Assembly (NCBI RefSeq): GCF_026278245.1
Contig: NZ_CP111079.1
Location: 3,102,501-3,166,500 of the forward strand
Direction of reading: 5' to 3'
From: Pontibacter kalidii
Lineage (GTDB): Bacteria > Bacteroidota > Bacteroidia > Cytophagales > Hymenobacteraceae
Length of the DNA: 64,000 nucleotides
The translations under genes and the position numbers were made by a program. Below the pieces are notes generated by a model. That model was given only the letters and a program-made list of their open reading frames with translations, searched no databases and was not told the DNA's origin. Shown here piece after piece: positions 1 to 64,000 of the stretch (the first letter of the stretch is position 1; each line of letters starts with the position of its first letter).

Positions 1-620
1 GTTGGGTTTGCAACCCTACTGGCTTGAAAAGCCATACTTATACTTGGGTTATACTTTGGCTATACTTTAAACTTGAGCTATACTCCGTTGTACTTGCATA
101 GCCGCTGCTTCCTTCCACTTGAGGCAAGCTATACTTTCTAGCCGCCGCCGATCCTGTAGTTCCCACAAACCTACCGTTGCATTTCATACTTTGGTGCTCT
201 CCAGCCCGAGAGGGCTCGTCCTGGGGGTAGGGGCCCTCGATAAGGGCATCGCGCTGTGTTCCCTTCCTTTGCTCCTAACGTCGCAATGCCTCACTCACGT
301 TCGGCACCGGAATCTCACAAGGCGCTCAACCCGAGGACTGGGAACAGATTCGATAGCACGGCTGATGAAGCTTCAGCCAAGTCCCCCTTCGAAGGGGGCA
401 GGGGGATGATGATCGCCTGCGGATAATTCCCCTCCTCTGGACTAGCCAAAACGTGAGTTTTGAGCTAGCGAGCGTAGCTCTCAGGGGTGGGTTTATACTT
501 TGTAGGGACAGGTCGCGACCTGTCCGCGCTACACCAGCAGCTATGCAATTTATACTTTGTAGCTGCAGCTTCACCTCCCTTCCATCAAGATTCTTAACAG
601 AATGACAAGTGGAAGAGTAG
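1..620. repeat. Long non-coding repeat block, copy 1
   Basis: No convincing gene lies in the first 728 bases. This stretch is collinear with 7811-8420: both begin with a GGGTTTGCAACC-type palindrome, then an 'actggct..agcc' hairpin followed by several TATACTT motifs, then a nearly identical block of about 70 bases (about 185-257 here and 8022-8090 there), then a 'GGCGCTCAACCC..GGACTG' block, and finally GTAGGGACAGGTCGCGACCTGT. A 20-bp perfect palindrome, GGACAGGTCGCGACCTGTCC, occupies 506-525. The end (about 583-606) resembles the 'ggatcctttcaggatgacaa' dispersed repeat also seen near 14020 and 34420. Bases 620-728 hold nothing recognisable. It could be a decayed mobile element or a mosaic of small repeats; no coding capacity is conserved between the copies. 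Confidence 0.75.
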
Positions 621-728
621 GCAGAACTCCCCTCCATAGCCAAGCCTCGGATCCCGGTCTTACTTCGGGAAAAGGGCAGTTGGACCCGGCACTGCAAAAA
701 ACAAAGTCAGCCTCCCACAACTTAAACC

Positions 729-1415
729 TTAAGACTTCGGCGATCCCTTCAGCCCCAGGTCCTTTACCCTTTCCCGTATCTTTTGCATGAAATCCTCGCC
801 CGGATCCACTTTTTTGGTTCTGTAGCCGGCATCCACCTCTTTCCAGAGCGGGTGGCCTTCAAAGTCCTGGTACTCGTAGTGCCCGATCAGGTACTCGATG
901 TCATACTTGCTTTTCAGGTAGCGCACCAGGTCCTCGTTGGCTTTTAGCTGGGCTTTGGTCATGCCTTCCTTGCCGCCTCCTACGTTCTCCACGCCGATGG
1001 CACAGTGGTTCAAGCCGATCACGTGGCGGGCAAAGGCAGTATCCGGGAGCTGGCGGTAAACGGTACCGTCCCGGTCTACCAGAAACTGGGCCGACACATT
1101 CAGATTACTTGCAGCGCCGATCTCGGTACGGGCACCCGGCAACAGCGTCGGGTTCATGGCCGCAAAAGACCTTTCCAGCGTGGGAATGGCCGTCCAGTGG
1201 AGCACGATCATTTTTGGTTGAATGTAAGGCGCGTCCTGCTTCATGTTATACCGGGCCTCCATGTACTCCAGCGAAAGCTGCTGCCGTTCCTCGTCAAAAA
1301 CGATCGGTTTCTCCTGAATCTGGAAGGCTTGCCCGGCACAGGCACTCAGCAAGCACAAGCTAACGGCGCCCGCCTTTACGGCTGTTCTTCGCCATAATCC
1401 TACAAGTAGTTTCAT
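729..1415 (-). CDS. N-acetylmuramoyl-L-alanine amidase, Amidase_2/PGRP type, lipoprotein
   Basis: This predicted zinc amidase cleaves the bond between muramic acid and the peptide stem of peptidoglycan. The N-terminus is a lipoprotein signal ending in LLSAC (Cys26), so the protein is probably anchored in a membrane facing the periplasm. Amidase_2 features are visible: VLHWT with a zinc-type His73, the stretch His131 to His137 before GVEN, and a VDPG Asp near residue 205. The length of 228 aa fits a single-domain enzyme. A TTG codon lies directly upstream at 1418, but the ATG at 1415 is the better start. It is the last of three same-strand cell-wall genes (3432 down to 729). The exact substrate, recycling or turnover, is inferred only. 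Confidence 0.85.
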   Translation of the reverse strand: MKLLVGLWRRTAVKAGAVSLCLLSACAGQAFQIQEKPIVFDEERQQLSLEYMEARYNMKQDAPYIQPKMIVLHWTAIPTLERSFAAMNPTLLPGARTEIGAASNLNVSAQFLVDRDGTVYRQLPDTAFARHVIGLNHCAIGVENVGGGKEGMTKAQLKANEDLVRYLKSKYDIEYLIGHYEYQDFEGHPLWKEVDAGYRTKKVDPGEDFMQKIRERVKDLGLKGSPKS

Positions 1416-1465
1416 CAAAGTATAGTATAGTTTATAGTACGATTGGTTAGGTATGATAACTGGAA

Positions 1466-2467: not shown

Positions 2468-2511
2468 GACAACCCAAGTATAAAGTTTAATTAAAGTATA
2501 AAGTCGGCCTC

Positions 2512-3432: not shown

Positions 3433-3445
3433 ACTCTAATATAGC

Positions 3446-3476: not shown

Positions 3477-3512
3477 CACTTATACTTTTAACTAAGCTGC
3501 CAGGCACGGGAT

Positions 3513-4620: not shown

Positions 4621-4644
4621 CACACAGCGTTTACATGTATTCTT

Positions 4645-8618: not shown

Positions 8619-11078
8619 CTACTGCACCTGGCGGTTCTTCACGTACTTCTCCAGCCACTGGTCCATCTCCCAGAGCATGTGCAGCACAGACTCCTTGGCG
8701 CGGTAGCCGTGGCTTTCAGCTGGCAGGAAAACCAGGCGGGCCGTGGCTCCATGGCCTTTCAGGGCGTTGTAGAAGCGCTCGCTCTGTACCGGGAATGTGC
8801 CTGAGTTATTGTCGGCCTCGCCATGAATGAGCAGGATCGGCTCATTTACCTTGTTGGCGAATGAGAACGGCGACATCTGGAAGTATACTTCCGGGGCATC
8901 CCAGTACGTACGCTCCTCCGCCTGGAAACCAAACGGTGTCAGGGTGCGGTTATAGGCCCCGCTACGCGCAATACCGGCGGCAAACAGATCGGAGTGCGCC
9001 AGCAGGTTTCCGGTCATAAACGCGCCGTACGAGTGGCCTCCCACGGCAATGCGCTTCGGATCGGCCACGCCCATTTTCACTACCTCGTCGATAGCGGCCT
9101 TGGCACTGGACACCAGCTGCTGCACGTAGGTATCGTTTGGCTGTGCGTCTCCCTCCCCTACTATCGGAATATCGGTCCTGTCGAGGATGGCGTAGCCCTG
9201 CGTTACCCAGAACAGCGGAGAGCCCCAGCTGATGCGCGTAAACTCGTATGGAGAGCTTTTCACCTGACCGGCGGCAGCAGCATCCTTAAACTCGCGCGGG
9301 TAAGCCCACAGCAGCATTGGCAGCGGTGTATCGCCTTTCTTGTAGTCCTTTGGCAAGTATAAAACAGCCGTCAGGTTCACGCCATCCTCGCGCTTGTATT
9401 GTAGCATCTGCTTCTGTACCCCCTCCAGCTGTGGTGTTGGGTGCGGGAATTTGGTTACCTGCGTCAGTTGCTTCTTCTTCAGGTCGCGCACGAAATAGTT
9501 CGGCGGGTCGTTTTCAGACTCTCTTCGGGTGATGATCTTCTTGTCGTTCAGGTCGATGATGTCCACCGGGCGCTCATAGTAAGGGGCCTCCGATCTCCAA
9601 AGTATAGCTGCCTTCCTTGACTTTAGGTTGAATTCGCTTACAAACGGACGATTCCCTTCCGGCGAGCCGCCCTCTGAGATCATGTAGATGTTTTGCTTTT
9701 TCTTATCCGTCAGCAGCACGCTGCGGCCATACTTGTTCTTGGTGAACACCGGCGAGCCCGGGTCGTTGTAGTTATCCTCGTAAGAGCGCTCGATGAGCAC
9801 AGTGGCTTTGGCAGATGCTTTGGAAGGGTTTACCAGGGTGCTGCGCTCCTGGCGGGTTTTCCACCAGCGCTCGTTCACGATGGCCATGTTCTCGCCCCAC
9901 ATCACGCCACGGTAACGGTACTTGGTCGAGGCCAGTTGGGAAGGCTTCCCGTTGAAGGGTGCATCCAACATGTATACGTGGTCGCGCACGGCTGCCTCTT
10001 TGTTTGCATCGCCGCCGTCCTGTGCCTCGGCCCAGTACAGCGTGGCTGGTTTATCAGAGCGCCAGTTATAACTACGCGGGCCTTTGGCCACGGCATCGAA
10101 GGCAATCGGGATATCCTCGGCCAAGGGTAGCTGCGCCAGCTCCTTTACGACCTGGCCGTTGCGATTCCATACTTCTACCTTGTAAGGGAAGTAATAATGC
10201 GGCACCAGGTATGAATAGGGTTTCTGGATGGTCTGCACTAGCAGGTACTGCCCATCCGGAGAGGCGTCTATACTTTTGATGATGCCGGCTTGCCCTATGG
10301 ACTCCTGCTTACCGTCCACAGAAATCAGCTTCAGCTGCGTCTGCATGTAGTAATCGAACAGCTGCTCGTCGTTGCGGTTCTTCAGCAAATCCTGGTAGGT
10401 GCGCGAGGGCTTGGCCTTGCCGATATTTTCCTGGATAGTAGGGCCGGTTGGCACATGCGTTGCCTTCGGCATGTCGCCACGCTTCTCATCCACAAACTTT
10501 ACTACCAGCGTCCTGCTGTCCGACAGCCACTCAAACGGGCGGCCGCTGTAGGCATCGTTTACCACAGCCTCTGTCAGCTTTTTAGCCTCTCTAGCTCCCA
10601 GGTCGGCAATCCACAGCTCTATGCCATTGACTTTGGTGTTGGTAAAGGCAATATACTTCTCGTCTGGCGACCAGGTAACGTTAGAGAGCTGCGCGTTCTG
10701 CGGCAGCCCTTTGATCGCGAACTCATCGGCGTTGCTCACCTTTTTAAGCTTCAGGCCATTGTAGTAGTAGCCACGGCTGGGGCCGTTGGTAGCAGGGTTG
10801 ATGCGAATACCGGCCAGGCGGCTCTCCGGCGCCGACACCTCCTCTATACTTGGGTAGCCCGGGCTCTCGAGCAGCAGCATCCAGTCGCCCTTGGCGCTTA
10901 TACTTACCGACGGCGTGTTTGGGGCCTCGATAATGGCTGCGATGGTTTCGGGTGGGCGCTGGTAGCCGGTGTTGGCATCCTGGGCCAGTGCAGCAGGTGC
11001 AGCTGTGCCTCCCAGCAGCAGTGCGCACAGCAGGTGTGCGGCCAGGCGCCGGGCGGCTTTGGTTTTCGTAAAGTTCAT
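8619..11078 (-). CDS. S9 (prolyl oligopeptidase family) serine peptidase, exported
   Basis: This 819-aa exported peptidase has a signal peptide ending near LAQDAN, an N-terminal beta-propeller-like half (about residues 60-530, with NVTWSPDEKYIAFTN as a typical WD-like blade), and a C-terminal alpha/beta-hydrolase domain. The catalytic triad is visible: Ser in GGHSYGAFM, Asp in HGEADNNSG and His in ESHGYR. The arrangement matches the glutamyl endopeptidase-like branch of S9, which cleaves peptides in the periplasm or outside the cell. The start ATG at 11078 gives a good signal peptide. It is a single-gene unit with its own terminator. The cleavage preference cannot be read with confidence. Confidence 0.88.
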   Translation of the reverse strand: MNFTKTKAARRLAAHLLCALLLGGTAAPAALAQDANTGYQRPPETIAAIIEAPNTPSVSISAKGDWMLLLESPGYPSIEEVSAPESRLAGIRINPATNGPSRGYYYNGLKLKKVSNADEFAIKGLPQNAQLSNVTWSPDEKYIAFTNTKVNGIELWIADLGAREAKKLTEAVVNDAYSGRPFEWLSDSRTLVVKFVDEKRGDMPKATHVPTGPTIQENIGKAKPSRTYQDLLKNRNDEQLFDYYMQTQLKLISVDGKQESIGQAGIIKSIDASPDGQYLLVQTIQKPYSYLVPHYYFPYKVEVWNRNGQVVKELAQLPLAEDIPIAFDAVAKGPRSYNWRSDKPATLYWAEAQDGGDANKEAAVRDHVYMLDAPFNGKPSQLASTKYRYRGVMWGENMAIVNERWWKTRQERSTLVNPSKASAKATVLIERSYEDNYNDPGSPVFTKNKYGRSVLLTDKKKQNIYMISEGGSPEGNRPFVSEFNLKSRKAAILWRSEAPYYERPVDIIDLNDKKIITRRESENDPPNYFVRDLKKKQLTQVTKFPHPTPQLEGVQKQMLQYKREDGVNLTAVLYLPKDYKKGDTPLPMLLWAYPREFKDAAAAGQVKSSPYEFTRISWGSPLFWVTQGYAILDRTDIPIVGEGDAQPNDTYVQQLVSSAKAAIDEVVKMGVADPKRIAVGGHSYGAFMTGNLLAHSDLFAAGIARSGAYNRTLTPFGFQAEERTYWDAPEVYFQMSPFSFANKVNEPILLIHGEADNNSGTFPVQSERFYNALKGHGATARLVFLPAESHGYRAKESVLHMLWEMDQWLEKYVKNRQVQ

Positions 11079-18461: not shown

Positions 18462-19442
18462 ATGGATAGCCGCTACTGGGACATCGCTGCCAAGAGCTTT
18501 AAAGGCAAGGCCACACCCGCCGAGGAGGAGGCGCTGCGCCAGTGGCTGAACCAAAGTCCGGAGCACCGGGAGCAGTACCAGGCCCAACAGCAGCTCTGGA
18601 GGCTCACGGCACCCGCCCCTGCCACAGCAGTAGATACGGATTCCGCCTGGAGAAAAGTGCGTGCGCAACTGCAGCCGCAGCAGGCAAAGGTTATCCCGCT
18701 ACACCGGCAGCTGTGGCGCGTGGCCGCTGCCGTGGTGGTGCTTGTCGGCATCGCCTGGCTGGCTAAGCTATACTTCCTGCCTTACTATGGGCTAGAGGTA
18801 GTAAGGTCGGGTAGTGGGCAAATGGCAGTTATACTTCCGGACAGCAGCCAGGTGTGGCTCAATAAAGGAACTACACTTGCTTATAATCCGGATTTTAACG
18901 GACCGCAGCGGGAAGTACACCTGGAGGGCGAGGCCTTTTTCGAAGTAAAGCGCAATCCGCAGCAGCCTTTTGTCATTGAGGCAGAGAACAGTAAAACACA
19001 AGTACTAGGAACCTCCTTTAACCTGCGCGCCTATCCACATGAACAGACGGTGGAGTTGACGGTGGCCACGGGCAAGGTTGCCTTTACATCATCTAAAAGT
19101 TCAGCACAGGCTATTGTTACCCCTGGCTATGGTGCCATACTTCAGAAACAGGAAAACAGCGTTGAAAAGTATGAATTGGCCGGTGAAAACGCCTGGGCCT
19201 GGAAAAGCGGCAAGCTGCACTTCGGCGGCAAACCGCTAAAGGAGGTACTGGCGGCGCTGGAGCGCTACTACGGGGTGACACTGCAGCTAGCGCACCCAGG
19301 GCTGGAAAACTGCCGGTTTACGGGCACCTTCCAGAACTCAGAGCTGCAGGAGGTGCTGCAGGTGCTGGAGGCATCGCTGCAACTCGAGATCATAAAGCAG
19401 GACGAGCATACTTATACGTTGGCGGGCAACGGCTGCCACTAA
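18462..19442 (+). CDS. FecR-family anti-sigma factor
   Basis: This inner-membrane anti-sigma factor of 326 aa has a cytoplasmic N-terminus that should hold the sigma factor (YWDIAAKSFKGKATPAEEEALRQW), one transmembrane segment near residues 85-105 (VAAAVVVLVGIAWLAKLYFL), a periplasmic FecR domain (PDSSQVWLNKGTTLAYNPDF, then VHLEGEAFFEV) and a C-terminal DUF4974-like segment (GGKPLKEVLAALERYYGVTLQL). It relays the signal from the STN domain of the next protein. The gaps are 104 bp to the sigma gene and 19 bp to the receptor gene, in keeping with one transcript. Confidence 0.93.
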   Translation: MDSRYWDIAAKSFKGKATPAEEEALRQWLNQSPEHREQYQAQQQLWRLTAPAPATAVDTDSAWRKVRAQLQPQQAKVIPLHRQLWRVAAAVVVLVGIAWLAKLYFLPYYGLEVVRSGSGQMAVILPDSSQVWLNKGTTLAYNPDFNGPQREVHLEGEAFFEVKRNPQQPFVIEAENSKTQVLGTSFNLRAYPHEQTVELTVATGKVAFTSSKSSAQAIVTPGYGAILQKQENSVEKYELAGENAWAWKSGKLHFGGKPLKEVLAALERYYGVTLQLAHPGLENCRFTGTFQNSELQEVLQVLEASLQLEIIKQDEHTYTLAGNGCH

Positions 19443-31167: not shown

Positions 31168-31211
31168 TTAAAGTATAAAAGTATAGCCATGGCTATACTT
31201 TTATACTTTAA
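31168..31211. repeat. 44-bp perfect palindrome made of AAGTATA motifs
   Basis: Each half is 22 bases: the left half begins TTAAAGTATAAAAGTATAGC and the right half is its exact complement. The 44 bases contain four copies of the AAGTATA/TATACTT heptamer, two per arm. It could act as a terminator after the efflux channel, a cruciform or a protein-binding site. The downstream gene's true start (31243) lies outside it. Confidence 0.95.
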
Positions 31212-34713: not shown

Positions 34714-34747
34714 CTTATACTTATACTTATACTTATACTTATACTTA
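34714..34747. repeat. CTTATA tandem array
   Basis: Five complete head-to-tail copies of CTTATA plus a partial sixth contain five overlapping TATACTT heptamers. The array is the simplest tandem form of the motif that is scattered through the window. It ends directly at the terminator hairpin at 34746-34784. Confidence 0.95.
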
Positions 34748-52642: not shown

Positions 52643-54127
52643 TTATCGTCCGCGTCCTGTACTTTTCACATCCTGGCCTTTCATTGGCCATGGGGAGTCG
52701 GCAGGACCGCTTTCGTTTACCGCTATCTTGAACAGTTTGATGTTGGCACCACTTGTCGCTTCTATAAAGACTGTTCCGTCTTCGGTTATCGTTGGGGAGT
52801 TTACCACACCATCGCCCAACTCTATTTCCTTAAGCAGCTGCCCCAAGGCATTCACCACCACCAGTTTTCCATCTGAAGAGCCAATGTAAACTCGGCCCTC
52901 AACATCTACTGCTGGCACACTTTCATTGGTGCTCATAGGGTAAGTCCAGTTCACTGCACCGTTCTGCGGGTTAAGGGATACCAGTCCTGCTCCGGCACCA
53001 GTGTAAAGTTCACCGGTCGGGCCGATCACCACACCAGACTGGGCAGCGCCTTTAACATCGGCAGACCATTTTACAGCGCCGGTCTCACCGTTGTCTGCGA
53101 TGGCTACCACATGCGCATTCGTGGTATAGTAAATCGTGCCGTCGGAATCCATCGACAGCGAACTGCCGTGCGTGCCACTGCCCATACCAACAGACTCCGT
53201 CCATTTACTGGTACCGTCTGCTGTATTAATGGCCCATACTTTACCCTCGCTCGTATTCAAGAAGTAAACAGTGTTGCCATCCTTACTGAGAACAGGAGCA
53301 GAATAGAAAGAACCCACGCCTATAATTTCCCAGCGCTTCTCGCCCGATGGGCTCCAGGAGTAAGCACCGCCATCGCCAGTTGTGAACCTCGAGCCATGAT
53401 AAATGTTGCCCTCGGCATCTACGGCAGGCGTTGTATTGGAAGCCCCTCTGCCGGCGCCGCTCCACATAATAGCCCCATCTGCACCGTTCAACTTGTATAC
53501 CATGTTGTCATTTGCCCAAGTATTCACATATATGCTGCCATCAGTACCAATAGAAGGTGCATTGGCAATATAGCCGGCTAATTCTGTGGCCCATCTTAAC
53601 TGTGCATTCTCTCCCTGGTCTGTTACGGCTACCACATTACCCACGGAGCCAAACCTGGATTCCAGATAATATATGGTGCCGTCATCGCCAATAACCGGGG
53701 CGCTAGAGCCTTCATTGATATGTGTTACGGCCGCATTGTTTGTGAACTCCCAAACGATATTGGCGAGAAACTCTTTCGGCGGCGGCGCTACCTCAACAGT
53801 TTTAGTCACCTCATGCTGGGCGCCGTCTGCATTCCGCACCACAAGCGTCACCTGGTAGGTGCCTGCACTGGCAAACGTAAAGTAGGGGTTTCTTTTCTTC
53901 GAGGTAGAGCCCTCCGCATCGCCAAAGCTCCAGCTCCACTCAGCTACTTCCCCAGACCCCTCTTTACGGTCGGCATAGAACAGAATCTCCTGCCCTACTA
54001 TCGGGGCTGCTGGGGTGAAGTTGAAATCAACATCGGGAGGCAAAAGATCTCCCAAGTCATCGTCTTTACATGCGAAAAACGAAAAACTCATCAAAAGACC
54101 TAGTAAGAGTATCTTTACATTTTTCAT
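52643..54127 (-). CDS. PKD-domain and PQQ-like beta-propeller lipoprotein
   Basis: This 494-aa lipoprotein (lipobox FFAC) has a PKD domain at about residues 35-112 (WSWSFGDAEGSTSKKRNPYFTF, then AGTYQVTLVVRN), followed by an eight-bladed PQQ-type propeller built from repeats such as APVIGDDGTIYYLES, APSIGTDGSIYVNTW, TPAVDAEGNIYHGS, APVLSKDGNTVYFLN, GVVIGPTGELYTGAG, VPAVDVEGRVYIGS and SPTITEDGTVFIEA. Such propellers hold or recognise ligands and are not necessarily PQQ enzymes. It follows the SusD gene across 283 bp and probably acts as an extra surface glycan-binding protein. Confidence 0.88.
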   Translation of the reverse strand: MKNVKILLLGLLMSFSFFACKDDDLGDLLPPDVDFNFTPAAPIVGQEILFYADRKEGSGEVAEWSWSFGDAEGSTSKKRNPYFTFASAGTYQVTLVVRNADGAQHEVTKTVEVAPPPKEFLANIVWEFTNNAAVTHINEGSSAPVIGDDGTIYYLESRFGSVGNVVAVTDQGENAQLRWATELAGYIANAPSIGTDGSIYVNTWANDNMVYKLNGADGAIMWSGAGRGASNTTPAVDAEGNIYHGSRFTTGDGGAYSWSPSGEKRWEIIGVGSFYSAPVLSKDGNTVYFLNTSEGKVWAINTADGTSKWTESVGMGSGTHGSSLSMDSDGTIYYTTNAHVVAIADNGETGAVKWSADVKGAAQSGVVIGPTGELYTGAGAGLVSLNPQNGAVNWTYPMSTNESVPAVDVEGRVYIGSSDGKLVVVNALGQLLKEIELGDGVVNSPTITEDGTVFIEATSGANIKLFKIAVNESGPADSPWPMKGQDVKSTGRGR

Positions 54128-54345
54128 TATAACTATTTTTTCAGTGCTTTTAATCTTTTAACAAAGGCTGGTGATAAGTGGAACTTCTCTCATATGAGGT
54201 GCTTACTCGCTAGGCTATTCACCTCCTCAAAAACCTGTACACCCCATGTTAGAGGCAACAATTCCTCCATCTTAACTTTATGGGGCAGGTTGTTCCAGCT
54301 AACTCAGCAGCAGCCAAATCGCGCCTGGTAACTGCAGTATTAGAA

Positions 54346-54390
54346 GTACTGTAGCTGAGATCGTCTATAGCGCATCTCAGACTACAGTAC
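54346..54390 (-). terminator. Hairpin between SusD and PKD/propeller genes
   Basis: GTACTGTAGCTGAGAT (54346-54361) pairs with ATCTCAGACTACAGTAC (54374-54390), one base bulged, with a 12-base loop, 20 bases after the SusD stop. There is no good T-run, so it may stabilise the upstream message or only partly terminate. Confidence 0.55.
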
Positions 54391-54410
54391 CTTTGAGCAG
54401 GCTATATTTT

Positions 54411-56063
54411 TTACCAGCCAGGGTTTTGCCCTAGGTCAGGGAAACGCTCCAACTGCGATAGCGGAATCGGCCACAAGTAGTTCCTTGACGGATCAAAGCT
54501 TCTCCCGGTATAGGCAACGATAAAACCGTTTTCGTCTTTGCGCAGGTTTGCCGCAGAAGCAGGGTTCGAGAGCCAGTTAACATTGGTACCCTTTACGTCC
54601 TGAGCGAGTAGTTCCCCCTGCTTCCAGCGCAGGATATCGAAGTAGCGCTGTCCCTCTAGAGCAAGCTCTATGCGGCGCTCACGGCGAATTTCCTCCCGCA
54701 CATCCAATCCGTTCTCGGCTAGTTCCGCCAGGTTCATGTGCTTCATCCCCACACGGTCGCGCAGCAGGTTGATCGTCATATCGATGTCTTCCTGCGTCAG
54801 CTTACCCTGCTCCAGCCTTGCCTCAGCATAAGTGAGTAAAACCTCCGCGTAGCGGAGCAGGTGTATGTCGTTTGCGTCCCGGCCTACTAAACCAACTGTA
54901 GATAACTCAGCATACTTTGTAAAATAGTATCCTGTAATGGTCACCGCCCCCCTTCTGTCGGAGCTAAACTTGGGTACCATGAAGATATCCGGATTTTCAT
55001 TTTCTGCGATCGGTCTGCCGTCATACCGGCCTCCCCACGCTGCACCTGGCTCCAGGATCGTTTGCGTCATGCGAGGGTCACGGTTCTTGAAAACATCTTC
55101 ATACGTCTGCACGCTGTATAGGGGGGATATCTCGATAGGAAGGCCATCCTCCATCAAATAATCATCTACCAATGACTTCGTCGGGTTCCAGCGCACCACC
55201 TGGTCAGGCACCTGAATCTCACGACTTAAGTTGTGCAGAACCAGATCCTCCAAATGTGGCCGGGCAATAATAGTTTCCCGGTTGTTATTCCTAGACAGCT
55301 TGCCTTTATAAGTAAATAGGTCGTAGTAGTTTCTGCTCGGGTCCCCGGAAGTAAACAACTGGTAAACACCGAGGTCCATCACCTCCTTAGCAGCCTTTTC
55401 TGCCACATCCCAGCGCCCGTTATAGAGGGCAACCCTTGCTTTCAGGGCTAAGGCTGCCCCTTTGCTCATTCTCCCCAAGTTTGCTCCCGTCGGGATCTCT
55501 GCAGGTAAGTGCTGAGCAGCTTCCTCCAGGTCCTGAAGTATAAAGTTCACTACTTCTTCCTTCGGGTTTCGTGGCACATACACCTCATCAATGGAGAGGG
55601 TATTCTTAACCAAAGGCACATCACCCCAGAAGCTGGTCAGGTAGCTGTACATCAGTGCTCTGATAACACGCACCTCTGCTGCCAGTGCTTCCCTTCTGGC
55701 CGGATCAACATCTGCTTTCTGGTAGTTCTCAAGGAAAGCATTTGCCTGGCGCACACCTCTGTATTGAGTGGTCCATTCGGTATTAAGCGTACTTAAGTCA
55801 TTTCCGAAGTTACCGCTTCCTATGAGCTGATACTGCGTAGAGGAAGGCCATAGGGTGTTATCCCCCATGTTCTCCATGTCTACTGTATTTTTCGCCTTTA
55901 CATTGGCGTATAGCGCATTTACCGCCAGCACGAGCTGATCCTCATCCTCCCAAAATGTTTCGTTTGAAATTTCATCCAGAGGGGCTCTTTCCAGGAAGTC
56001 ATCGTCGCAGGAACCTAACAGGAAAGCGCTAAGTACTAAGCTGTATAATATTCTCTTTTTCAT
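54411..56063 (-). CDS. SusD/RagB-family outer-membrane lipoprotein
   Basis: This 550-aa surface lipoprotein (lipobox LLGSC) forms the lid of the SusC channel and binds the substrate. The family begins DDDFLERAPLDEISNETFWEDEDQLVLAVNALYANV, exactly the SusD N-terminal pattern; the TPR-like helices include AEVRVIRALMYSYLTSFWGDVPLV, and the C-terminus has RRERRIELALEGQRYFDILRWKQGE followed by NYLWPIPLSQLERFP. Full length is normal. It starts 8 bp after the SusC stop, so the pair is cotranscribed. The glycan bound is unknown. Confidence 0.94.
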   Translation of the reverse strand: MKKRILYSLVLSAFLLGSCDDDFLERAPLDEISNETFWEDEDQLVLAVNALYANVKAKNTVDMENMGDNTLWPSSTQYQLIGSGNFGNDLSTLNTEWTTQYRGVRQANAFLENYQKADVDPARREALAAEVRVIRALMYSYLTSFWGDVPLVKNTLSIDEVYVPRNPKEEVVNFILQDLEEAAQHLPAEIPTGANLGRMSKGAALALKARVALYNGRWDVAEKAAKEVMDLGVYQLFTSGDPSRNYYDLFTYKGKLSRNNNRETIIARPHLEDLVLHNLSREIQVPDQVVRWNPTKSLVDDYLMEDGLPIEISPLYSVQTYEDVFKNRDPRMTQTILEPGAAWGGRYDGRPIAENENPDIFMVPKFSSDRRGAVTITGYYFTKYAELSTVGLVGRDANDIHLLRYAEVLLTYAEARLEQGKLTQEDIDMTINLLRDRVGMKHMNLAELAENGLDVREEIRRERRIELALEGQRYFDILRWKQGELLAQDVKGTNVNWLSNPASAANLRKDENGFIVAYTGRSFDPSRNYLWPIPLSQLERFPDLGQNPGW

Positions 56064-56071
56064 GGTACTGC

Positions 56072-59000
56072 TTACTTGAGGTTAATATTGAGGCCAACTA
56101 CATACGTCTTCACTTGCGGGTAAAAGTTTCCGTCACTTACCGGAGACTCCGGGTCGAAACCATAGAAGAAATCAGTCTTTGTCAGCAGGTTGTCTGCAGA
56201 GGCATAAATACGTAGACGACTTACCCTGAACTTCTCTGTGAGACTGACAGGCAAAGTATAACCTACCTGCACATTCTTAAGTCGAAGATAGGAGGCGTCT
56301 TCGAGCCAGAAAGTAGAAAGCCTTTGGTTATGACCTAACTGGTATGCTAAGCGCGGATAGCTCGCATCGGTGTTCTCAGGAGTCCAACGATCCTGGTGTA
56401 TTTTCTGAGGCATGTTACTCTCTGTGGCAAAGGCATGCCGGGCAGATCCATACAGGTAACCGTCCACTTCTCCTACTCCCTGCAGGAAGAAACTAAAGTC
56501 CACGCCTTTCCAGGCCATGTTGCCACGGAAACCATAGGTATACCTTGGAATATGGCTGCCAATTACCTTTCTGTCCTCTTCCAAGGTCAACTCTCCATCC
56601 CCGTTCAGGTCTTTATAGATAATGTCGCCAGGGGCAATCTTATCTCCCTTTATATAAGGAAAGTCCGGTACAAAGCTACCAGTCTCTGGATCATACCTGA
56701 AGTCAGATTCCTGGGCAAGGCGATCAGCTACCAATCCATAAAATGCATCAATTGGCTCGCCAATCAAGCGAACTCTATCCCCATACGTAGCTAAGGTACC
56801 ACCCAATCCCACAACCTTATTTCTTACATCAGAGATGTTGAAGTTAGCGCCGTACTGGAAATCATTTTTCTTTTCGTTCCAGCCTAATTGGAGCTCCCAT
56901 CCTTTATTCTCTACCTTTCCGGCATTCTGAGGAGGCTCTGGAGCACCAAACACGCCAGGCTGCGGGATCACAAGCAGAATATCATCCGTCTCGTTTATGA
57001 AGTAGTCACCTGATATGTTTAGGCGGTTCCCCAGGAAGGCAAGATCAATACCTGCGTTTTTCTTTGTTGCTGACTCCCAGGTTAGCAATTGGTTAGCAAC
57101 CACAGTTTGCCTAACACCAAAGGTGATTTCATTGCCAATGGGCATGGTCTCAAACGGGCCCAGAATGTCCATGTAGGCAAAGTCACCGACCCGGTCATTC
57201 CCCTGTGTTCCGTAGGAGAGGCGGATTTTACCAAACTCTACAACATCCCTCAGGCCTTCAAAGAAGCTTTCTTCGGTGAACACCCAGCCAACCGACGCTG
57301 CAGCAAACAGATCCCACCGCACGGCTTTTGCAAACCTGGTAGAACCGTCGTACCGGAAGTTAACCTCTGCCAGGTATTTGTCCTTGAAACCGTAATTCAC
57401 CCTTCCGAAGGCAGACCGTAGCGCATTTTGGGAAGAGCTTCCGCTGTTGAGTTGATTCTCGGTACCCAAGTTGATGTGGCCAAGAGACTGAGAGGCCAGG
57501 TTAGTTCTGGTCGCAGCAAAGTTGTTGCCTATGGTTTCTTCCTGCGATGCCCCCAACAATAGCTTTACATCATGCTGATCACTGAAGCGCTTCTCATACT
57601 CCGCCGTACCTATAAAAGTCTGGTACAAGTTTCTGTAATCGCGGGTATCAATCTTGTTAGGATAGCCGGTTCTGTAAATCCTTTGCCCCGTATCCGGGCT
57701 GTAGTAATTTATTGTCTTAGTAAAGATGGTCCTGTTTGAATTTGAACTGATAAGGCCATACTGCCCCCTCAGCTTAAAGCCATCGAACAGACTAATGGAG
57801 GCATTCAGGTTTCCTGTAAACTCCTGGGACCCAAAATCATTGGTTCCACCATCGGTGGCTACAGCCACCGGATTGCTCTGCCCGCCCAAGTAACCCCAAC
57901 CACCGGTTGTAAAACGAACTGGAACCAGCGGAACAATCGATAGAGCAGAATAAATAGGTCCCGTCCCGGTGGCAGGCCCGGAGTAAGCCCGGTCTATATA
58001 GCCTATGTTGGCGGTAACATCCAGACGATCCATCAGGGTTGTGCTGATCTTGGCTCGCAGATTATGCCTATTAGCCTTGAAGCCATCCCCTACTACCAGG
58101 CCGCCCTCTTTCAGGTAGCCATAAGACATGAAATAGTTGATGTTTTTAGCACCACCGTTAATGCTCAGATTATGGTTTTGCTGTGGTGCGCTTTTCCTAA
58201 CCACCTCCTTAATCCAATTTGTATTGGCAAAGTAATTCGGGTCTGAGCCGTTACGTGCAGTTTCTATTTCTTCAGGAGAGTAGGTAGGATTTCTGCCAGC
58301 ATTCACCTGCGACTCATTCAGCAACTCCATATACTCTGGTGAACCCAGGAATTCTGGCAATGCTGTTGGTGTCTGCAACCCATAATAAGTGTTATAGGAG
58401 ATGTTTGGCTTATCGCCTGTGCCTTTTTTAGTTGTCACCACAATAACGCCGTTGGCGCCGCGCACACCATATATAGAGGAGGAGGCTGCGTCTTTTAGCA
58501 CAGACACACTCTCTATATCGTTGGGGTTTAGCAGGTCAAGTGTACCTCCGGGTATTCCATCTATCACCACAAGCGGCGTAGCGTTACCCAAGGTACCAAT
58601 CCCCCTAATGCGAATATCACCTCCGTTGTTCCCTGGTGCTCCGGTGGCCCCTGTAATGGTTACACCCGGCATCAACCCCTGTAGACCGGAAGTCACATTT
58701 GTAATGGGTCTGTCCTCCAGCGCCTCTGCCTCTACCTGATGCACTGCACCTGTAAGGTTAGCTTTTTTCTGAGTACCATAGCCAACAACAACAACCTCCT
58801 CAAGCGCTTTTGCATCTTCCTTAAGCGAGATTGTTAATGTAGTTTGATTTCCTACAGCTACCTCTTTTCTCTCAAAACCTATGTATGAGAAAACAAGCAC
58901 TGGCTGCGTAATACCGTCCGCATTAATTGAGAAACGGCCATCAGCACTTGTGATCGTACCTGTATTGGTTCCCTTCAAGGAAACAGATACCCCTGGCAAC

Positions 59001-59212
59001 GGCACCCCATTCTCATCTCTCACAACCCCCGACACAGGCCCATCCTGCATGTCGCGAATGGAGGAGTTAAGAGCAACTACCGGGACGGAGGCAGTGGCAT
59101 TCGCCCCAATGACAATTCCCTCAAAAGGGGCAATCCCCAGCAATGCCAGCAGTAGCAGCGAGCATTTCCGACGGGAGCCTCTATTGTTTTTTCCTTGTAA
59201 ATTTTGATTCAT
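56072..59212 (-). CDS. SusC/RagA-family TonB-linked outer-membrane transporter
   Basis: This 1046-aa TonB-dependent channel pulls the ligand held by SusD into the periplasm. A signal peptide is followed by a CarboxypepD_reg-like domain (VSGVVRDENGVPLPGVSVSL), the TonB-box-type segment EEVVVVGYGTQKKANLTG, the plug with GDIRIRGIGTLGNATPLVVIDG and SVLKDAASSSIYGVRGANGVI, and the 22-strand barrel ending in VVGLNINLK. There is no STN domain, so induction probably does not go through an anti-sigma factor, in contrast to the receptor at 19462. It is preceded by a 945-bp gap with clustered AATCAC half-sites. Confidence 0.95.
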   Translation of the reverse strand: MNQNLQGKNNRGSRRKCSLLLLALLGIAPFEGIVIGANATASVPVVALNSSIRDMQDGPVSGVVRDENGVPLPGVSVSLKGTNTGTITSADGRFSINADGITQPVLVFSYIGFERKEVAVGNQTTLTISLKEDAKALEEVVVVGYGTQKKANLTGAVHQVEAEALEDRPITNVTSGLQGLMPGVTITGATGAPGNNGGDIRIRGIGTLGNATPLVVIDGIPGGTLDLLNPNDIESVSVLKDAASSSIYGVRGANGVIVVTTKKGTGDKPNISYNTYYGLQTPTALPEFLGSPEYMELLNESQVNAGRNPTYSPEEIETARNGSDPNYFANTNWIKEVVRKSAPQQNHNLSINGGAKNINYFMSYGYLKEGGLVVGDGFKANRHNLRAKISTTLMDRLDVTANIGYIDRAYSGPATGTGPIYSALSIVPLVPVRFTTGGWGYLGGQSNPVAVATDGGTNDFGSQEFTGNLNASISLFDGFKLRGQYGLISSNSNRTIFTKTINYYSPDTGQRIYRTGYPNKIDTRDYRNLYQTFIGTAEYEKRFSDQHDVKLLLGASQEETIGNNFAATRTNLASQSLGHINLGTENQLNSGSSSQNALRSAFGRVNYGFKDKYLAEVNFRYDGSTRFAKAVRWDLFAAASVGWVFTEESFFEGLRDVVEFGKIRLSYGTQGNDRVGDFAYMDILGPFETMPIGNEITFGVRQTVVANQLLTWESATKKNAGIDLAFLGNRLNISGDYFINETDDILLVIPQPGVFGAPEPPQNAGKVENKGWELQLGWNEKKNDFQYGANFNISDVRNKVVGLGGTLATYGDRVRLIGEPIDAFYGLVADRLAQESDFRYDPETGSFVPDFPYIKGDKIAPGDIIYKDLNGDGELTLEEDRKVIGSHIPRYTYGFRGNMAWKGVDFSFFLQGVGEVDGYLYGSARHAFATESNMPQKIHQDRWTPENTDASYPRLAYQLGHNQRLSTFWLEDASYLRLKNVQVGYTLPVSLTEKFRVSRLRIYASADNLLTKTDFFYGFDPESPVSDGNFYPQVKTYVVGLNINLK

Positions 59213-60158
59213 AACAACATCAGAGTTTAGTAGTGATTCTGTTCCTGTTTAAAGTTGCTGATCGTATGCGTGTACTATAGCCAATAGCGTTGAGGCGTGA
59301 TATCCATTTTTTGTCCTACAAATAAGATCTCTTCTTAAGTTTATCTCAGCCGACGTTGATCAAATTCCAGACTAGATTATACTTATTCAGGCTACACTTT
59401 AGTGATTTATGACTCAATCACCGTATAAAGGAGTGATTTTTTTACCTTATTAACAAAACTTCTTTAACTTTTTTTCATAAGTCTTGTTTAACTCGTTACT
59501 TATTTACTAATCACTAAAGAGGTTTGCTAACAAATCTTTAAAAAACAGGCCACTACCTTGAAAATATGGCCATAATAATAAAGTTCTATTGCAGATTATA
59601 TTTACATTAACAAATTGTTATTAGTAAGTGCTTAATTACCTACATCTAAAAGTATCATGAGATATAAGATCAACCATAAACCATAGAGTAAAATTGGGTT
59701 TCCTAAAGACAGAAAGTTGGAGCAGGAATTTTAAGCAGCCATTTTAAGTTAGTAGGCTCCTCAAAAGGTTTAGATATAGAGTAGAGATGGATAGGTATCT
59801 CCCCCTAAGAGATGGGCTATTAAGCTCTGAGATGGGTAAAGGTTATGGGTCTTTCTGCCGCAAAGTGAGCATAGCCATGCCAGGCGGGGAAGCCGAAATA
59901 AGAGCTAACTGGATTTGCAACAACCTACATTATAGCTGGGGATTTACACGACGGTAAATCCCCAGCTAAAGTAAGCGGATACCTGGAGTATCATATTTTT
60001 TTAAGCGACACCGTTCAAAGAAAACAAAAAGCAATATACAGATGCTGTACTGCCTGCTTATGCTATTAACAGGAAGTGGCCTTCTAAGCCTCCTCAGCTA
60101 ATGCCAGTTTCGCACAGTACTTTTACTAAAACGTAGACTGTCCTATAACTGCAGCCTA
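59213..60158. promoter_or_regulatory. SusC upstream region with four AATCAC/GTGATT half-sites
   Basis: This 946-bp AT-rich gap has no gene. The hexamer occurs at 59402-59407 (GTGATT), 59416-59421 (AATCAC), 59433-59438 (GTGATT) and 59509-59514 (AATCAC); the middle two form an inverted repeat with an 11-base spacer. The longer TTTAGTGATT (59398-59407) repeats inverted at 59509-59518. These lie 190-300 bp upstream of the SusC start and could be regulator sites. A perfect 15-bp inverted repeat, TAGCTGGGGATTTAC with its complement (59933-59947 and 59954-59968), lies farther up. The remainder holds nothing I recognise. Confidence 0.4.
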
Positions 60159-60938
60159 TTATAATTGGAACAGCACGTTCAGTTGCAGCACAGACTCGTT
60201 AATCCCTTCCAGGCCTACCACATTGTGCCAGTAACGCCACTCGGTGCCGGCATATACTTTGCCTGGTTTGCCGCGCAGGTTGCCTAGGTCCAGCAGCAAC
60301 TGCGGCTGCGCAAGGAATTGGGTAGTGCCCGGCCCCCGGTCGCCGATGAAGTCCATGAAGCCGCGGAAGCGTAAGTGCACTTTCTCGGAGGCTGGCAAAG
60401 GTATATCCCAGCTCGGGGTAAACTGGTACGTACCGCTGTACGCGGAGCCGTGCTGCTTGTAGTAGAACGTTTCGAGCTGCAGCAATCCTTGCCCGGGCAG
60501 CCGGAACTTAAAGGCTGGCCCCAGCAGGTACACAAAGAAATCCTCATCGCCACCAAAGAGTACATTCACTCCGCCGCCCAACAACACATCGCTAATTGGT
60601 CCCAGCGCTACCTCCCGTTTCGTGGCACGGCTAAGGCTTAGCTTTGGGTACCACTCCGAATACAGCGATGGTCCGGCCAAGGTCACATCATTGGAGAGGT
60701 CCGCAAAGCCAAAATGCTCCCATGCGCCCACCATGCCAAAGTGCTCAAAGGTGATGGTGGCCAGGTCGCCGGACTGGTTCAGGTGCCTTCCGTAAAGCAA
60801 CTGCACGTTAGAGCCGCCCTCATACATAACCTGTGCTGCCGCCTGCTTCTGCGACAGCAGCAGCGTGAGCAGGAAGAGCGGTAGCAGCAAATACTTTTGG
60901 AAGGGAGGTATACCTGGCTTGGTAGAGGGTGTTTGCAT
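60159..60938 (-). CDS. Tsx-like/DUF5020 outer-membrane beta-barrel protein
   Basis: This 259-aa outer-membrane barrel has a signal peptide (FQKYLLLPLFLLTLLLS, then AAAQ) and alternating aromatic strands (YEGGSNVQLLYGRHLNQSGDLATITFEHFG, WEHFGFADLSND, WYPKLSLSRAT, FRLPGQGLLQLETFYYKQHG, KVYAGTEWRYWHNVVGLEG). The pattern fits the Tsx/OmpK nucleoside-channel relatives grouped as DUF5020. The C-terminus NVLFQL is a typical barrel end. An open frame extends to 61004, but the -7 box at 60972-60979 lies inside that extension, so the ATG at 60938 is the start. It is a single gene between SusC and CstA. Confidence 0.82.
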   Translation of the reverse strand: MQTPSTKPGIPPFQKYLLLPLFLLTLLLSQKQAAAQVMYEGGSNVQLLYGRHLNQSGDLATITFEHFGMVGAWEHFGFADLSNDVTLAGPSLYSEWYPKLSLSRATKREVALGPISDVLLGGGVNVLFGGDEDFFVYLLGPAFKFRLPGQGLLQLETFYYKQHGSAYSGTYQFTPSWDIPLPASEKVHLRFRGFMDFIGDRGPGTTQFLAQPQLLLDLGNLRGKPGKVYAGTEWRYWHNVVGLEGINESVLQLNVLFQL

Positions 60939-60971
60939 GAGAACTGGGTTTGGTGAAAATCTAACAGGTCG

Positions 60972-60979
60972 CAAATTTA
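60972..60979 (-). promoter_or_regulatory. -7 promoter box for the Tsx-like gene
   Basis: The minus strand reads TAAATTTG, an exact TAnnTTTG match. It gives a leader of roughly 28 bases to the ATG at 60938, and so it decides the start codon. Confidence 0.6.
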
Positions 60980-61190
60980 GAAGCTTCACCGAAATAAACC
61001 GCACTTCTGAAAGATCTCTTACTGCCAGCAGATAAACTCATACTTTACCGGAGGTAACAATTGCGCCTGCAACTATAAAATGGCAGGCGCTGCCAGTTCC
61101 GTATACTTTGCCAAGATACCATAACCAGAAAATTATCGCCCCTATCCTTGAGGTGGGGCTCTGAGGATAATTTCAACAAGCGTTCCTTCT

Positions 61191-62639
61191 TTACTCGGCC
61201 AGTTCTACCTCTAATTTGGTTTTTCGGCGGTACACCCTCAACAGAGTCGTCAAAAGCAGGAGACCCGCAACACCTGTACCCACGACGTAGGCAATTTCAT
61301 TGGGTAGTTGAAAGCCCTCGGGGGCAAGCAGAATGTAGGAGACTACCACTGCGCTCATAAATACAGCCGGCACCAGGCTTATCCAAAAGTTCTTCCCCTC
61401 CTTTATCAGGAACACCGTCACGACCCAAAGCGTTACGGTTGCCAGCGTTTGGTTTGTCCAGGCGAAGTACCGCCATACGATTCCAAAGTCAATTAAAGTT
61501 AGGCCATACCCTACCGCAAAGAGCGGCAGGCTGATCAGGAGCCTGTTTTTCAGGGAGCTTTGCCTGGAGCGTAGAAAGTCTGCAATGATCAGGCGGGCAC
61601 TGCGGAAGGCGGTGTCGCCCGAGGTAATGGGCGCGGCCACTACCCCAAGAAGGGCCAAGGCTCCCCCTATTTTCCCGAGGAGGGTATTGGATATATCACT
61701 GACGACGGAGGCCGCATTCCCCTGCTGCACTGCCATCACCTCGTTCAGTTCCTTAACTCCGCCAAAGAAGCTCATGCTGATGGCTGCCCATATCAGGGCA
61801 ACCACTCCCTCTGTTACCATCGTACCGTAGAAGATGCTTCTGCCCTGCCGTTCGCTGGTCATGCAGCGTGCCATGAGGGGAGATTGTGAAGCGTGAAACC
61901 CGGATATGGCGCCACAGGCAATGGTGACAAAGAGCATGGGGAACAGGGGGAACCCCTCCGGGTCCTGGTGCTGGTTAGCAAGGTTCGTAAGCGTCAGTTC
62001 AGGAACCTGAATGCCCTGCGTCACCATCATCACCACTATTCCCGCAGCCATGAAAAGAAGCGCAATCCCGAACACCGGGTAAATGCGGCCGATCAACTTA
62101 TCGATCGGCAGGACGGTAGACAGGACATAATAAATAAAGATAGCCCATACCCACAGGCTCATGCCCCCAAAACCGCCCGTCATGCCGTGCAGTATCTTAG
62201 CGGGCCCTATGACGAAGACAGCTCCGACCATCACCATAAGCAGCACCGTGAAAACCCGCATAAACTGTTTCATGCCACCTCCCAGGTAGTAACCGGTGAT
62301 CTCTGTTATACTTTCCCCTTTGTGCCGGAGAGAAAGCATTCCGGAAAGGTAGTCGTGTACCCCTCCGGCAAAGATCGTTCCCAGTACAATCCAAAGAAAA
62401 GCGGAAGGCCCCCACATAGCCCCTGCCACAGCACCGAAAATGGGACCCAGGCCGGCAATGTTCAGAAACTGTATAAGGAAAATCCTCCATCCAGGCATGG
62501 GAACAAAATCAACGTTATCCCGCAGGGTGATGGCCGGGGTCTTCCTGTCCGGCTCAACCCCGAATACTCGTTCAACAAACTTAGAGTACAATACATAGCC
62601 GAGCAAAAGTGCGGCAACGGAGGCAAAGAGAGAGATCAT
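61191..62639 (-). CDS. cstA: Carbon starvation protein A (pyruvate/peptide transporter)
   Basis: This 482-aa inner-membrane transporter has about 13 transmembrane segments. Diagnostic CstA stretches are DFVPMPGWRIFLIQFLNIAGLGPIFGAVAGAMWGP (split over residues ~45-80), GGVHDYLSGMLSLRHKGESI, and ISGFHASQSPLMARCM. It is shorter than E. coli CstA (about 700 aa), lacking the extra C-terminal part, as in the shorter forms. Family members take up pyruvate or peptides during carbon limitation. It diverges from a ROK regulator across 353 bp, suggesting sugar-dependent control. It is probably a monocistronic gene. Confidence 0.92.
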   Translation of the reverse strand: MISLFASVAALLLGYVLYSKFVERVFGVEPDRKTPAITLRDNVDFVPMPGWRIFLIQFLNIAGLGPIFGAVAGAMWGPSAFLWIVLGTIFAGGVHDYLSGMLSLRHKGESITEITGYYLGGGMKQFMRVFTVLLMVMVGAVFVIGPAKILHGMTGGFGGMSLWVWAIFIYYVLSTVLPIDKLIGRIYPVFGIALLFMAAGIVVMMVTQGIQVPELTLTNLANQHQDPEGFPLFPMLFVTIACGAISGFHASQSPLMARCMTSERQGRSIFYGTMVTEGVVALIWAAISMSFFGGVKELNEVMAVQQGNAASVVSDISNTLLGKIGGALALLGVVAAPITSGDTAFRSARLIIADFLRSRQSSLKNRLLISLPLFAVGYGLTLIDFGIVWRYFAWTNQTLATVTLWVVTVFLIKEGKNFWISLVPAVFMSAVVVSYILLAPEGFQLPNEIAYVVGTGVAGLLLLTTLLRVYRRKTKLEVELAE

Positions 62640-62992
62640 ATGCTATAGTTTTAGACGAAAGCGAGGCTCTAATGATTTTATAGTGGCGGTATTTCCTCTA
62701 CACTACCTGCCCCTTACTGACCTTTGATTTATATTCTCCGATTTAACTAGCTGACGCTGCTGCAGAGAAGATGGGCACCCCCCTACCGGAACCCTATGCA
62801 TTGAATTCCTCTGATTATTTTCGTGTTATTTATTTCATACAAAATATATCTTTTTTAAACAAAATCACTATCTTAATAAAAAAAATATTTAAGTACCTAC
62901 CCAGATTTAAATTATGATAATAACATGGGGAGCATATTTAAAACATGTGGCTAAACATCAGATCATAGGCTTTTAGACATCACAGGCAAATA
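62640..62992. other. Divergent gap between cstA and ROK regulator
   Basis: This AT-rich region carries a single AATCAC at 62862-62867, the same hexamer as in the SusC upstream region, followed by long A/T runs. The promoters of both divergent genes should be here; I see no exact TAnnTTTG box. Confidence 0.4.
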
Positions 62993-64000
62993 ATGAGCAA
63001 CATACGAAAGTCTTTCCTGGAAGAATTAGGGGGAGAACACATAACAGGCGTAGCGTATAAGAACGTCTACCAGAAGAAGAGCATCATTTCCTATTTTGCC
63101 AATGTTGGCAACGCGACCATTGCCGAGCTGTGCAAGGAGTTTAATCTGAGCGCTCCCAAGGTTACCAACCTGGTGAATGAATTGATCATCGATGGCTTGG
63201 TGCAGGACTATGGCAAGATAGACTCCACTGGCGGCAGAAAGCCCAACCTGTATGGCCTTGCCCCCGACTCGGGCTTCTTCTTAGGGATCGACGTCAAAAC
63301 CCATTCCATCAACATTGGCCTGACGGACCTTCAGAAGAATATTGTTAAGATCGAGGAGCATTACCCTTACAGGCTTAACAATAGTGAAGAGTCTTTAATG
63401 GAATTGTGCCGCATCATCAACACGTTTATCAAGGATCTGCCTATCCCAAAGTCTAAGATCCTGGGCATCGGCATCAACCTTTCGGGCAGAATTAACTATA
63501 CCACCGGGTACAGCTACAGCTTCTTCCATTTTTATGAAGATCCTCTGAGCAAGATCATTGAGTCGCAGGTGGGCATCCGCGTGTTCCTGGAGAATGACTC
63601 CAGGGCGATGGCCTACGGGGAGTTCTGCGCAGGGGTGGACGGCGGCTTAAAGCATGTCTTGTTCCTCAACCTCGACCACGGATTGGGCTCAGGCATCATC
63701 ATGAACGGACAGTTATACTATGGAAAGTCCGGGTACTCCGGGGAGTTTGGCCACATGCCTGTCTATGATAACGAGATTCTCTGCCACTGCGGTAAAAAAG
63801 GCTGCCTCGAAACGGAAGCATCCGGCAGGGCGCTTGTGCGGATGTTTAAAGAGAAAGTAGCCGAAGGCTCCTCTACCCTGGTGATGCGGGATAAGCAACA
63901 TATAGACGAGATTACGTTAGAGGATATCATTGAGGCGGCACACAACGACGACGTACTGGCCATTGAACTCATTGCCCAGGTAGGGGAGAAAATAGGTCGG
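62993..64000 (+). CDS. ROK-family transcriptional regulator, cut by window end
   Basis: An ATG at 62993 opens a frame of 336 codons without a stop to the window edge. The N-terminal winged helix is ATIAELCKEFNLSAPKVTNLVNEL, followed by IDGLVQDYGKIDSTGGRKPNLYG, and the ROK domain has LGIGINLSGRINYT, LENDSRAMAYGEF, FLNLDHGLGSGIIMNG and the zinc motif CHCGKKGCLE. It resembles the ROK regulator at 49937-51187 but is clearly a separate protein. About 60-70 residues are likely missing, judging by that relative. It diverges from cstA and is a candidate regulator of it or of the SusC/SusD locus. Confidence 0.9.
   Translation, partial: MSNIRKSFLEELGGEHITGVAYKNVYQKKSIISYFANVGNATIAELCKEFNLSAPKVTNLVNELIIDGLVQDYGKIDSTGGRKPNLYGLAPDSGFFLGIDVKTHSINIGLTDLQKNIVKIEEHYPYRLNNSEESLMELCRIINTFIKDLPIPKSKILGIGINLSGRINYTTGYSYSFFHFYEDPLSKIIESQVGIRVFLENDSRAMAYGEFCAGVDGGLKHVLFLNLDHGLGSGIIMNGQLYYGKSGYSGEFGHMPVYDNEILCHCGKKGCLETEASGRALVRMFKEKVAEGSSTLVMRDKQHIDEITLEDIIEAAHNDDVLAIELIAQVGEKIGR

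Follow-up and report, generated by a model that had tools for sequence, protein, structure and literature searches.

One-letter dialects of a hyper-iterated heptamer suggest a DNA uptake word in Pontibacter

Why a single heptamer should recur throughout the DNA of a bacterium, inside genes as well as between them, is the question raised by a 64-kb window (i.e., the whole stretch of DNA analyzed here; C1:3102501-3166500) of the Pontibacter kalidii genome (G000; 5.05 Mb, two contigs). A sequence-only reading of this window had counted by eye about 115 copies of AAGTATA or its complement TATACTT, with about six expected from base composition, and had likened the word to highly iterated palindrome 1 (HIP1) of cyanobacteria and to DNA uptake sequences. 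We propose that AAGTATA(A) is a self-recognition word of biased DNA uptake, which would make it a DNA uptake sequence (DUS) in Pontibacter, and we put the probability of this reading at roughly 0.6. The strongest finding is the presence of one-letter dialects of the word in sister species.

Both figures of the sequence-only reading held. The exact count is 115 (42 AAGTATA and 73 TATACTT), compared with 5.6 copies expected under an order-0 model and 8.2 under an order-2 Markov model, and the pair is the top 7-mer of the window by order-2 z-score. An order-5 model predicts 96.3 copies and is uninformative for a 7-mer, since each copy of the word raises the frequency of the 6-mers within it. As had also been noted, the base 3' of AAGTATA is most often A or G (A, 73; G, 26; C, 13; T, 3); the window consensus is AAGTATA followed by A more often than G and then by A (50 of 115), and A is weakly favored at the position before the word. 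Single-substitution neighbors lie within about 3-fold of expectation, with the exception of AAGTATG (32 versus 8.7). The open reading frames (ORFs) used wholly contain 51 of the copies, with the other 64 not so contained, and 204 of the 952 isoleucine codons in 40 window ORFs are ATA, of which 24 lie entirely within motif copies.

The excess extends across the genome. AAGTATAA occurs 5,271 times (2,681 + 2,590), and the reversed word, used as a control, occurs 112 times (51 + 61), which is a 47-fold difference. In a 444-kb chromosome sample (20 pieces), made up of the window and 380 kb taken at even spacing, we counted 798 copies of AAGTATA versus 55.7 expected (order 2). Genome counts at Markov level, which the sequence-only reading had named as a refutation, were not observed. 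All 20 pieces carry the word, at 0.80 to 2.65 copies per kb, and the two poorest (0.90 and 0.80 per kb) are also low in G+C (0.49 and 0.50). The 74-kb second contig, perhaps a plasmid, yielded 6 copies in the 20 kb sampled (0.30 per kb). One-off words are represented 0.7- to 2.6-fold, and AAGTATG alone is higher (5.1). Simple ORF calls place 468 of the 798 copies within ORFs, at 1.26 per kb, and the other 330 outside or at the edges, at 4.47 per kb; those within ORFs occur in both orientations and all frames, in agreement with the placement first described for the window. Gaps between convergent genes are the richest (7.22 copies per kb; 103 copies), followed by codirectional gaps (5.10 per kb; 153 copies) and divergent gaps (2.53 per kb; 41 copies). 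Successive fifths of genes from the 5' end contain 115, 98, 79, 94, and 82 copies, a weak preference for the first fifth.

We then called dominant words in 50 Pontibacter genomes, defined by a whole-genome count of at least 8 times that of the reversed word. Three dialects were distinguished, namely, A (AAGTATAA; AAGTATA), G (AGGTATAG; AGGTATA), and C (CAACTATA; AACTATA). The last two are each one substitution away from AAGTATA, and all three share A-N-N-TATA, mostly with a purine next. A dominant word, present in thousands of copies, was found in 39 of the 50 genomes (20 A, 12 G, 4 C, and 3 A plus C), and 11 genomes have none. The copy number of AAGTATAA ranges from 204 to 7,030 over the 50 genomes; that of AGGTATAG is 2,823 to 5,222 in twelve genomes, the next being G013 (833) and G041 (751); and that of CAACTATA is 1,985 to 4,335 in seven genomes, the next being G049 (1,066). 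The A-plus-C genomes (G013, G015, and G045) hold two one-letter dialects together. Enrichment is 14.4-fold (1.80 per kb) for AAGTATA in 380 kb of G000, 12.6-fold (2.02 per kb) for AGGTATA in 100 kb of G019, G003, and G012, and 13.6-fold (2.26 per kb) for AACTATA in 80 kb of G028 and G009. The alternative words also emerged from de novo counts in genomes low in AAGTATAA: CAACTATA in the rpoB regions of G009, G028, G038, G018, G015, and G013, and AGGTATAG in 9 of 10 samples from the second clade, having been missed in a 20-kb piece of G003 despite 4,748 copies genome-wide.

In an rpoB tree, a supported clade unites the 12 G genomes and a second clade unites the 7 C or A-plus-C genomes, and A genomes are located on both sides of the midpoint root. 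A label-count shuffle on this tree, restricted to the HIGH versus mid rows, gave a value as low in 104 of 500 shuffles. By inspection of the tree, the simplest history places A at the base of the genus, followed by two switches and about four losses; the A dialect is widespread and probably ancestral. The 11 word-less genomes are larger than the others (mean, 5.7 versus 4.6 Mb; p ~4e-6, uncorrected for kinship).

For one accessory gene of the window's genome, the nearest named record is Pontibacter litorisediminis (97% protein identity), a member of the Hymenobacteraceae. Outside the genus, no excess of AAGTATAA, the only word counted there, was found in 150 genomes of five other Hymenobacteraceae genera, in which its numbers are near those of the reversed control (highest ratio, ~2.4, in genus g3). 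A pooled pattern, ARSTATAR, was counted in a sample of 395 Bacteroidota genomes, in which the family had three further members and the order an additional eleven. It occurs 8,792 times in the window's genome (reversed, 1,008), and no like excess was seen in the other 394 genomes, of which G532 has the highest ratio seen (2,455 versus 2,059). De novo counts revealed no word of dialect strength in word-less Pontibacter genomes (40 to 60 kb for most; G008/G029/G033 and G036/G037/G017 pooled) or in 16 other Bacteroidota genomes at 20 kb each, an amount of DNA so small that weak words could escape.

The history of individual copies was traced by aligning the syntenic DNA of five A-dialect relatives (G016, G011, G022, G044, and G024; 79 to 87% identical) to the window. 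Depending on the relative, 33 to 84 of the 115 window copies were unalignable, and the five comparisons, all of which share the window sequence, are not independent. Coding copies were identical in 112 of 177 comparisons versus 348 of 1,243 for permuted control words (2.3 times as often), and noncoding copies were identical in 60 of 107 comparisons versus 272 of 765. Taken singly, G011 retained 28 of 33 coding copies (controls, 58 of 211) and G024 retained 8 of 22 (controls, 35 of 162). Unshared coding copies account for 61 substitution differences and 2 insertions or deletions (indels) over the five comparisons. The aligned orthologs that the sequence-only reading had proposed to consult therefore point to origin by substitution, and its suggestion of a mutational insertion product is refuted for coding copies. 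Some unshared noncoding copies differ by indels, and the mutational origin is less clear there. Changed codons alter the amino acid in 48 of 125 cases at motif sites (pooled) versus 5,997 of 22,858 elsewhere, with shares across comparisons of 0.32 to 0.44 and 0.24 to 0.31, respectively.

Three rpoB sites show the word of one dialect standing where another dialect has its own. In alignment column 1824, the 12 G genomes and 5 others all have AGGTATA, and no G genome is among the 18 with AAGTATA; column 3151 reads AGGTATA in 9 of the 12 G genomes and 2 others and AAGTATA in 28 genomes, including 2 G; and column 839 reads AAGTATA in 10 genomes and AACTATA in three C or A-plus-C genomes. In pairwise comparisons of rpoB regions, AAGTATA sites read AGGTATA in 33 of 265 cases in G genomes, 1 of 272 in other A genomes, 14 of 407 in C genomes, and 15 of 338 in word-less genomes.

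Under biased uptake, a surface or periplasmic factor would bind the word on extracellular DNA, and word-bearing DNA would be preferentially imported via ComEC and recombined with DprA/RecA, so that alleles carrying the word would spread and be restored when lost. A change in the specificity of the factor (A2 to G2, or G3 to C3) would let a new dialect overwrite the old one. Taken together, the substitution origin and conservation of copies, the two-dialect genomes, the clade-wise dialects, the joint breakage of comEC and dprA (see below), the poor second contig, and the poor low-GC stretches fit the profile of an uptake sequence. The traits of known uptake sequences that we found in Pontibacter are a chromosome-wide excess on both strands, a mutational origin of coding copies, lineage dialects, and the presence of ComEC and DprA.

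The Neisseriaceae have DUS dialects, with two in one genome in Simonsiella muelleri (Frye et al. 2013, PMC3630211). As in that family, the Pontibacter words are short and nonpalindromic, occur in thousands of copies, and form clade-specific dialects with a shared core, two of which can share a genome, and some genomes of the group are without an obvious word. Unlike the Neisseriaceae DUS, the putative Pontibacter uptake word belongs to another phylum, differs in sequence, and comes without a type IV pilus motor that we could find (ComP was not searched). The phenomenon resembles DUS dialects, with a different phylum and word and probably a different machine. The uptake signal sequences (USS) of the Pasteurellaceae arise by mutation, differ between subclades, and coexist with recent defects in competence genes (PMC1626085); inverted intergenic pairs and a within-gene bias have been discussed (PMC2346458), and the predicted USS receptor is a type IV minor pilin (PMC12616744). 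Mutational origin, competence gene defects in some species, inverted intergenic pairs, and subclade-specific words (two consensuses in the Pasteurellaceae, likewise clade-wise in Pontibacter) are common to both, whereas the word sequence and the weak 5'-fifth preference distinguish Pontibacter. Within the Bacteroidota, transformation of Riemerella anatipestifer requires ComEC, DprA, ComF, RecA, and a DUF5689 protein (PMC8459023). Pontibacter likewise has ComEC and DprA, and no counterpart of the DUF5689 protein was found in the window's genome. The term "uptake sequence" is absent from that Riemerella text.

A search for competence genes, also proposed by the sequence-only reading, was borne out in part: ComEC and DprA were each found in 50 of 50 Pontibacter genomes, and no receptor candidate appeared beside comEC. 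The comEC gene is frameshifted in three genomes (G020, G040, and G038), and dprA is frameshifted in two of these (G020 and G040; loci in Table 1). All neighbors matched by a G000 protein are in one piece (6 beside comEC and 5 beside dprA in G020; 4 and 2, respectively, in G040).

Several observations weigh against an uptake word: (i) ComEC and DprA are also present in most control genomes, among them that of E. coli, and finding them is by itself no proof of competence; (ii) the breakage of comEC and dprA is possibly a recent loss of competence, for which assembly error remains a candidate cause, and G040 retains full word numbers despite having both genes broken; (iii) in the 11 word-less genomes, ComEC and DprA are retained and their matched stretches are free of stops, and word loss therefore does not track loss of these genes, contrary to an expectation (outside the definition) from DUS and USS; (iv) the type IV pilus/type II secretion ATPase (PF00437) was detected in the 50 genomes only as fragments (38 to 66 of 370 positions; just above the cutoff in 3 of 50), so that the pilus typical of known uptake cases was not found by this search, in which pilins were not included; (v) the Riemerella-type DUF5689 protein, rejected as the receptor, is present in 22 of 50 genomes and absent from G000; (vi) in 20 comEC neighborhoods (11 word-bearing and 9 word-less), none of the widely shared genes is restricted to word bearers across all dialects; (vii) at rpoB column 3048, AACTATA is found in 27 genomes that span several dialects, and C-dialect sites are mostly in new places, where A genomes have AAGTATA in 7 of 617 comparisons; and (viii) no literature report joining Pontibacter with competence and DNA uptake was found. 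To our knowledge, known uptake-word receptors are pilins, whereas only fragments of a pilus ATPase were found here. Species with word-less genomes could be competent but take up DNA unselectively.

Since none of the 50 genomes yielded a full-length type IV pilus or type II secretion motor, the receptor and the outer membrane step should differ from those of ComP-type pilus systems. We consider the odds slightly better than even that self-DNA recognition in Pontibacter, with uptake words in at least three dialects, arose independently of type IV pili by way of an outer membrane receptor. We do not claim membership in the DUS class because preferential uptake is deduced here from genome sequences and the pilus feature was not found. 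Of the neighborhood clusters considered (those in at least 4 genomes), one related to AIR synthase lies beside comEC in 9 of 9 word-less and 3 of 11 word-bearing genomes; it resembles a housekeeping gene that sits in different places in different clades, and it was rejected, as were two weaker clusters (a tRNA methyltransferase-like protein and an uncharacterized protein).

A DNA methyltransferase acting with mark-guided repair could instead create and maintain the word, as proposed for HIP1, with dialects following changes in methyltransferase specificity; we regard this as unlikely. The genome-wide density of AAGTATAA, about one copy per kb, is near the one site per ~1,000 nt of HIP1, and alternate HIPs, which like the Pontibacter words occur in some genomes, accompany matching methyltransferases (Elhai 2015, PMC4390886). 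The substitution origin and conservation of copies would fit as well, and so would word loss without loss of ComEC or DprA. However, HIPs are palindromic and GC-rich, and the alternates are called sporadic in that paper, whereas AAGTATA, AACTATA, and AGGTATA are nonpalindromic (the 444-kb sample holds just 19 overlapping AAGTATACTT pairs) and not GC-rich, and their dialects are clade-wide. The low representation of one-off words other than AAGTATG also counts against such a drive. Of the roles suggested by the sequence-only reading, uptake gains the most support (from the dialects, conservation, poor second contig, and comEC/dprA breakage), and modification or repair is its main rival.

It is rather improbable that the word is a site, selected copy by copy, to which an abundant protein that structures the chromosome or acts in recombination binds (a nucleoid protein or a Chi-like site). 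Such a site would account for the conserved copies, the enrichment outside genes, and a slight excess in G-rich-strand orientation (377 versus 306 by GC-skew sign in the 17 segments that remain once three with skew near 0 are dropped; 432 versus 366 in all 20). This polarity is only 55%; the strong replication-linked orientation of Chi or FtsK-orienting polar sequences was not found, and a Chi-like polar site was rejected. Moreover, selection able to change amino acids would have to act on every one of thousands of coding copies, and clade-wide replacement of one letter would be hard to achieve for sites held individually.

A functionless mutational or mobile-element process that inserts or spreads the word is very improbable. 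Short tandem arrays at 6- to 11-bp steps, clustering of copies (103 gaps of <20 bp versus 28.6 expected), and the indels at some unshared noncoding copies are in its favor, but the predominance of substitutions largely refutes an insertion or mobile-element origin of coding copies, which are also conserved above controls. The tandem arrays may grow by slippage. Chance, base composition, or codon usage has a negligible probability: the order-5 expectation approaches the count only by circularity, the 47-fold excess over the reversed word and the different words of sister genomes refute it, and copies in all six frames and at high density outside called ORFs leave codon usage, which the sequence-only reading had named as a possible full explanation, ruled out.

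The uptake words in the literature considered come from two proteobacterial families, the Pasteurellaceae and the Neisseriaceae. If the uptake reading is true, Pontibacter provides a third case, in another phylum and with no pilus motor found, and DNA self-recognition would have evolved more than once, with another receptor. One genus holds a widespread (probably ancestral), two switched, a mixed, and a word-less state; on this reading, genome comparison and simple transformation assays in environmental bacteria could therefore test how uptake specificity starts, changes, and is lost. With switches of dialect and several losses inside a single genus, the origin, spread, and disappearance of uptake words could be followed directly. 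If modification or repair drives the word instead, it would be a nonpalindromic counterpart of HIP1, which is also new as far as the literature searched shows. No report of these words or of an uptake word in this lineage was found in a search that left most subscription journals and preprints outside.

Individual features are listed in Table 1, including the three coding copies quoted in the sequence-only reading, all of which exist.

Table 1. Motif copies and arrays in the window (window positions) and frameshifted competence loci
Feature	Position or locus	Strand	Context and state in relatives
Coding copy	26691..26697	+	RND (AcrB-family) permease gene 26671-29754; identical in G016, G011, G022, and G044; CAGTATA in G024
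Coding copy	27324..27330	+	RND permease gene 26671-29754; kept in G016, G011, G024, and G044; one substitution in G022
Coding copy (TATACTT on +)	18830..18836	-	Kept in G044; substitutions in G016; unaligned in the other three relatives
Overlapping inverted pair AAGTATACTT	8881..8890		Within S9 peptidase gene
Five TATACTT in tandem, 6-bp steps	34716..34746	-	Intergenic
Three TATACTT, 11-bp steps	39..67	-	Outside ORFs used
Long palindrome, four copies as inverted pairs	31168-31216 (copies, 31171..31208)		Junction of OEP and MgtC-DUF4010 genes
Motif-poor stretch	52643..64000		6 copies in 11.4 kb versus 109 in first 52.6 kb; PKD, SusD, and TonB-dependent receptor genes
Frameshifted loci	L285, L286 (G020); L287, L288 (G040); L226 (G038)		comEC in three genomes, dprA in two

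The four copies of the palindrome at the OEP/MgtC-DUF4010 junction, which may be an operator or terminator, are unchanged in 4 of the 5 aligned relatives, and the fifth (G024) has paired changes. A palindrome resembling it is located elsewhere in G011 (C17:200455-200503). The motif-poor end of the window may represent more recently acquired DNA.

Weaker or local excesses were seen in several other Pontibacter genomes. In G001 (C1:1944098-1946633), AGGTATAG occurs about every 66 bp at least 39 times, like the repeat of a CRISPR array, and inflates the forward AGGTATAG count of that genome. G041 (L130, L176, and L283) has a weak excess centered on GGTATA (AGGTATA, 4.5x; GGGTATA, 3.6x), which is perhaps a decaying or fourth dialect. 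AACTATA reaches 3.3x in the pooled G036/G037/G017 sample, and CTCTACC reaches 4.9x in the pooled G008/G029/G033 sample, in which the loci are partly orthologous. In 47 kb of G035 (L173, L278, and L101), TATATAA and CTATATA are in 4- to 5-fold excess (CTATATA, 4.8x).

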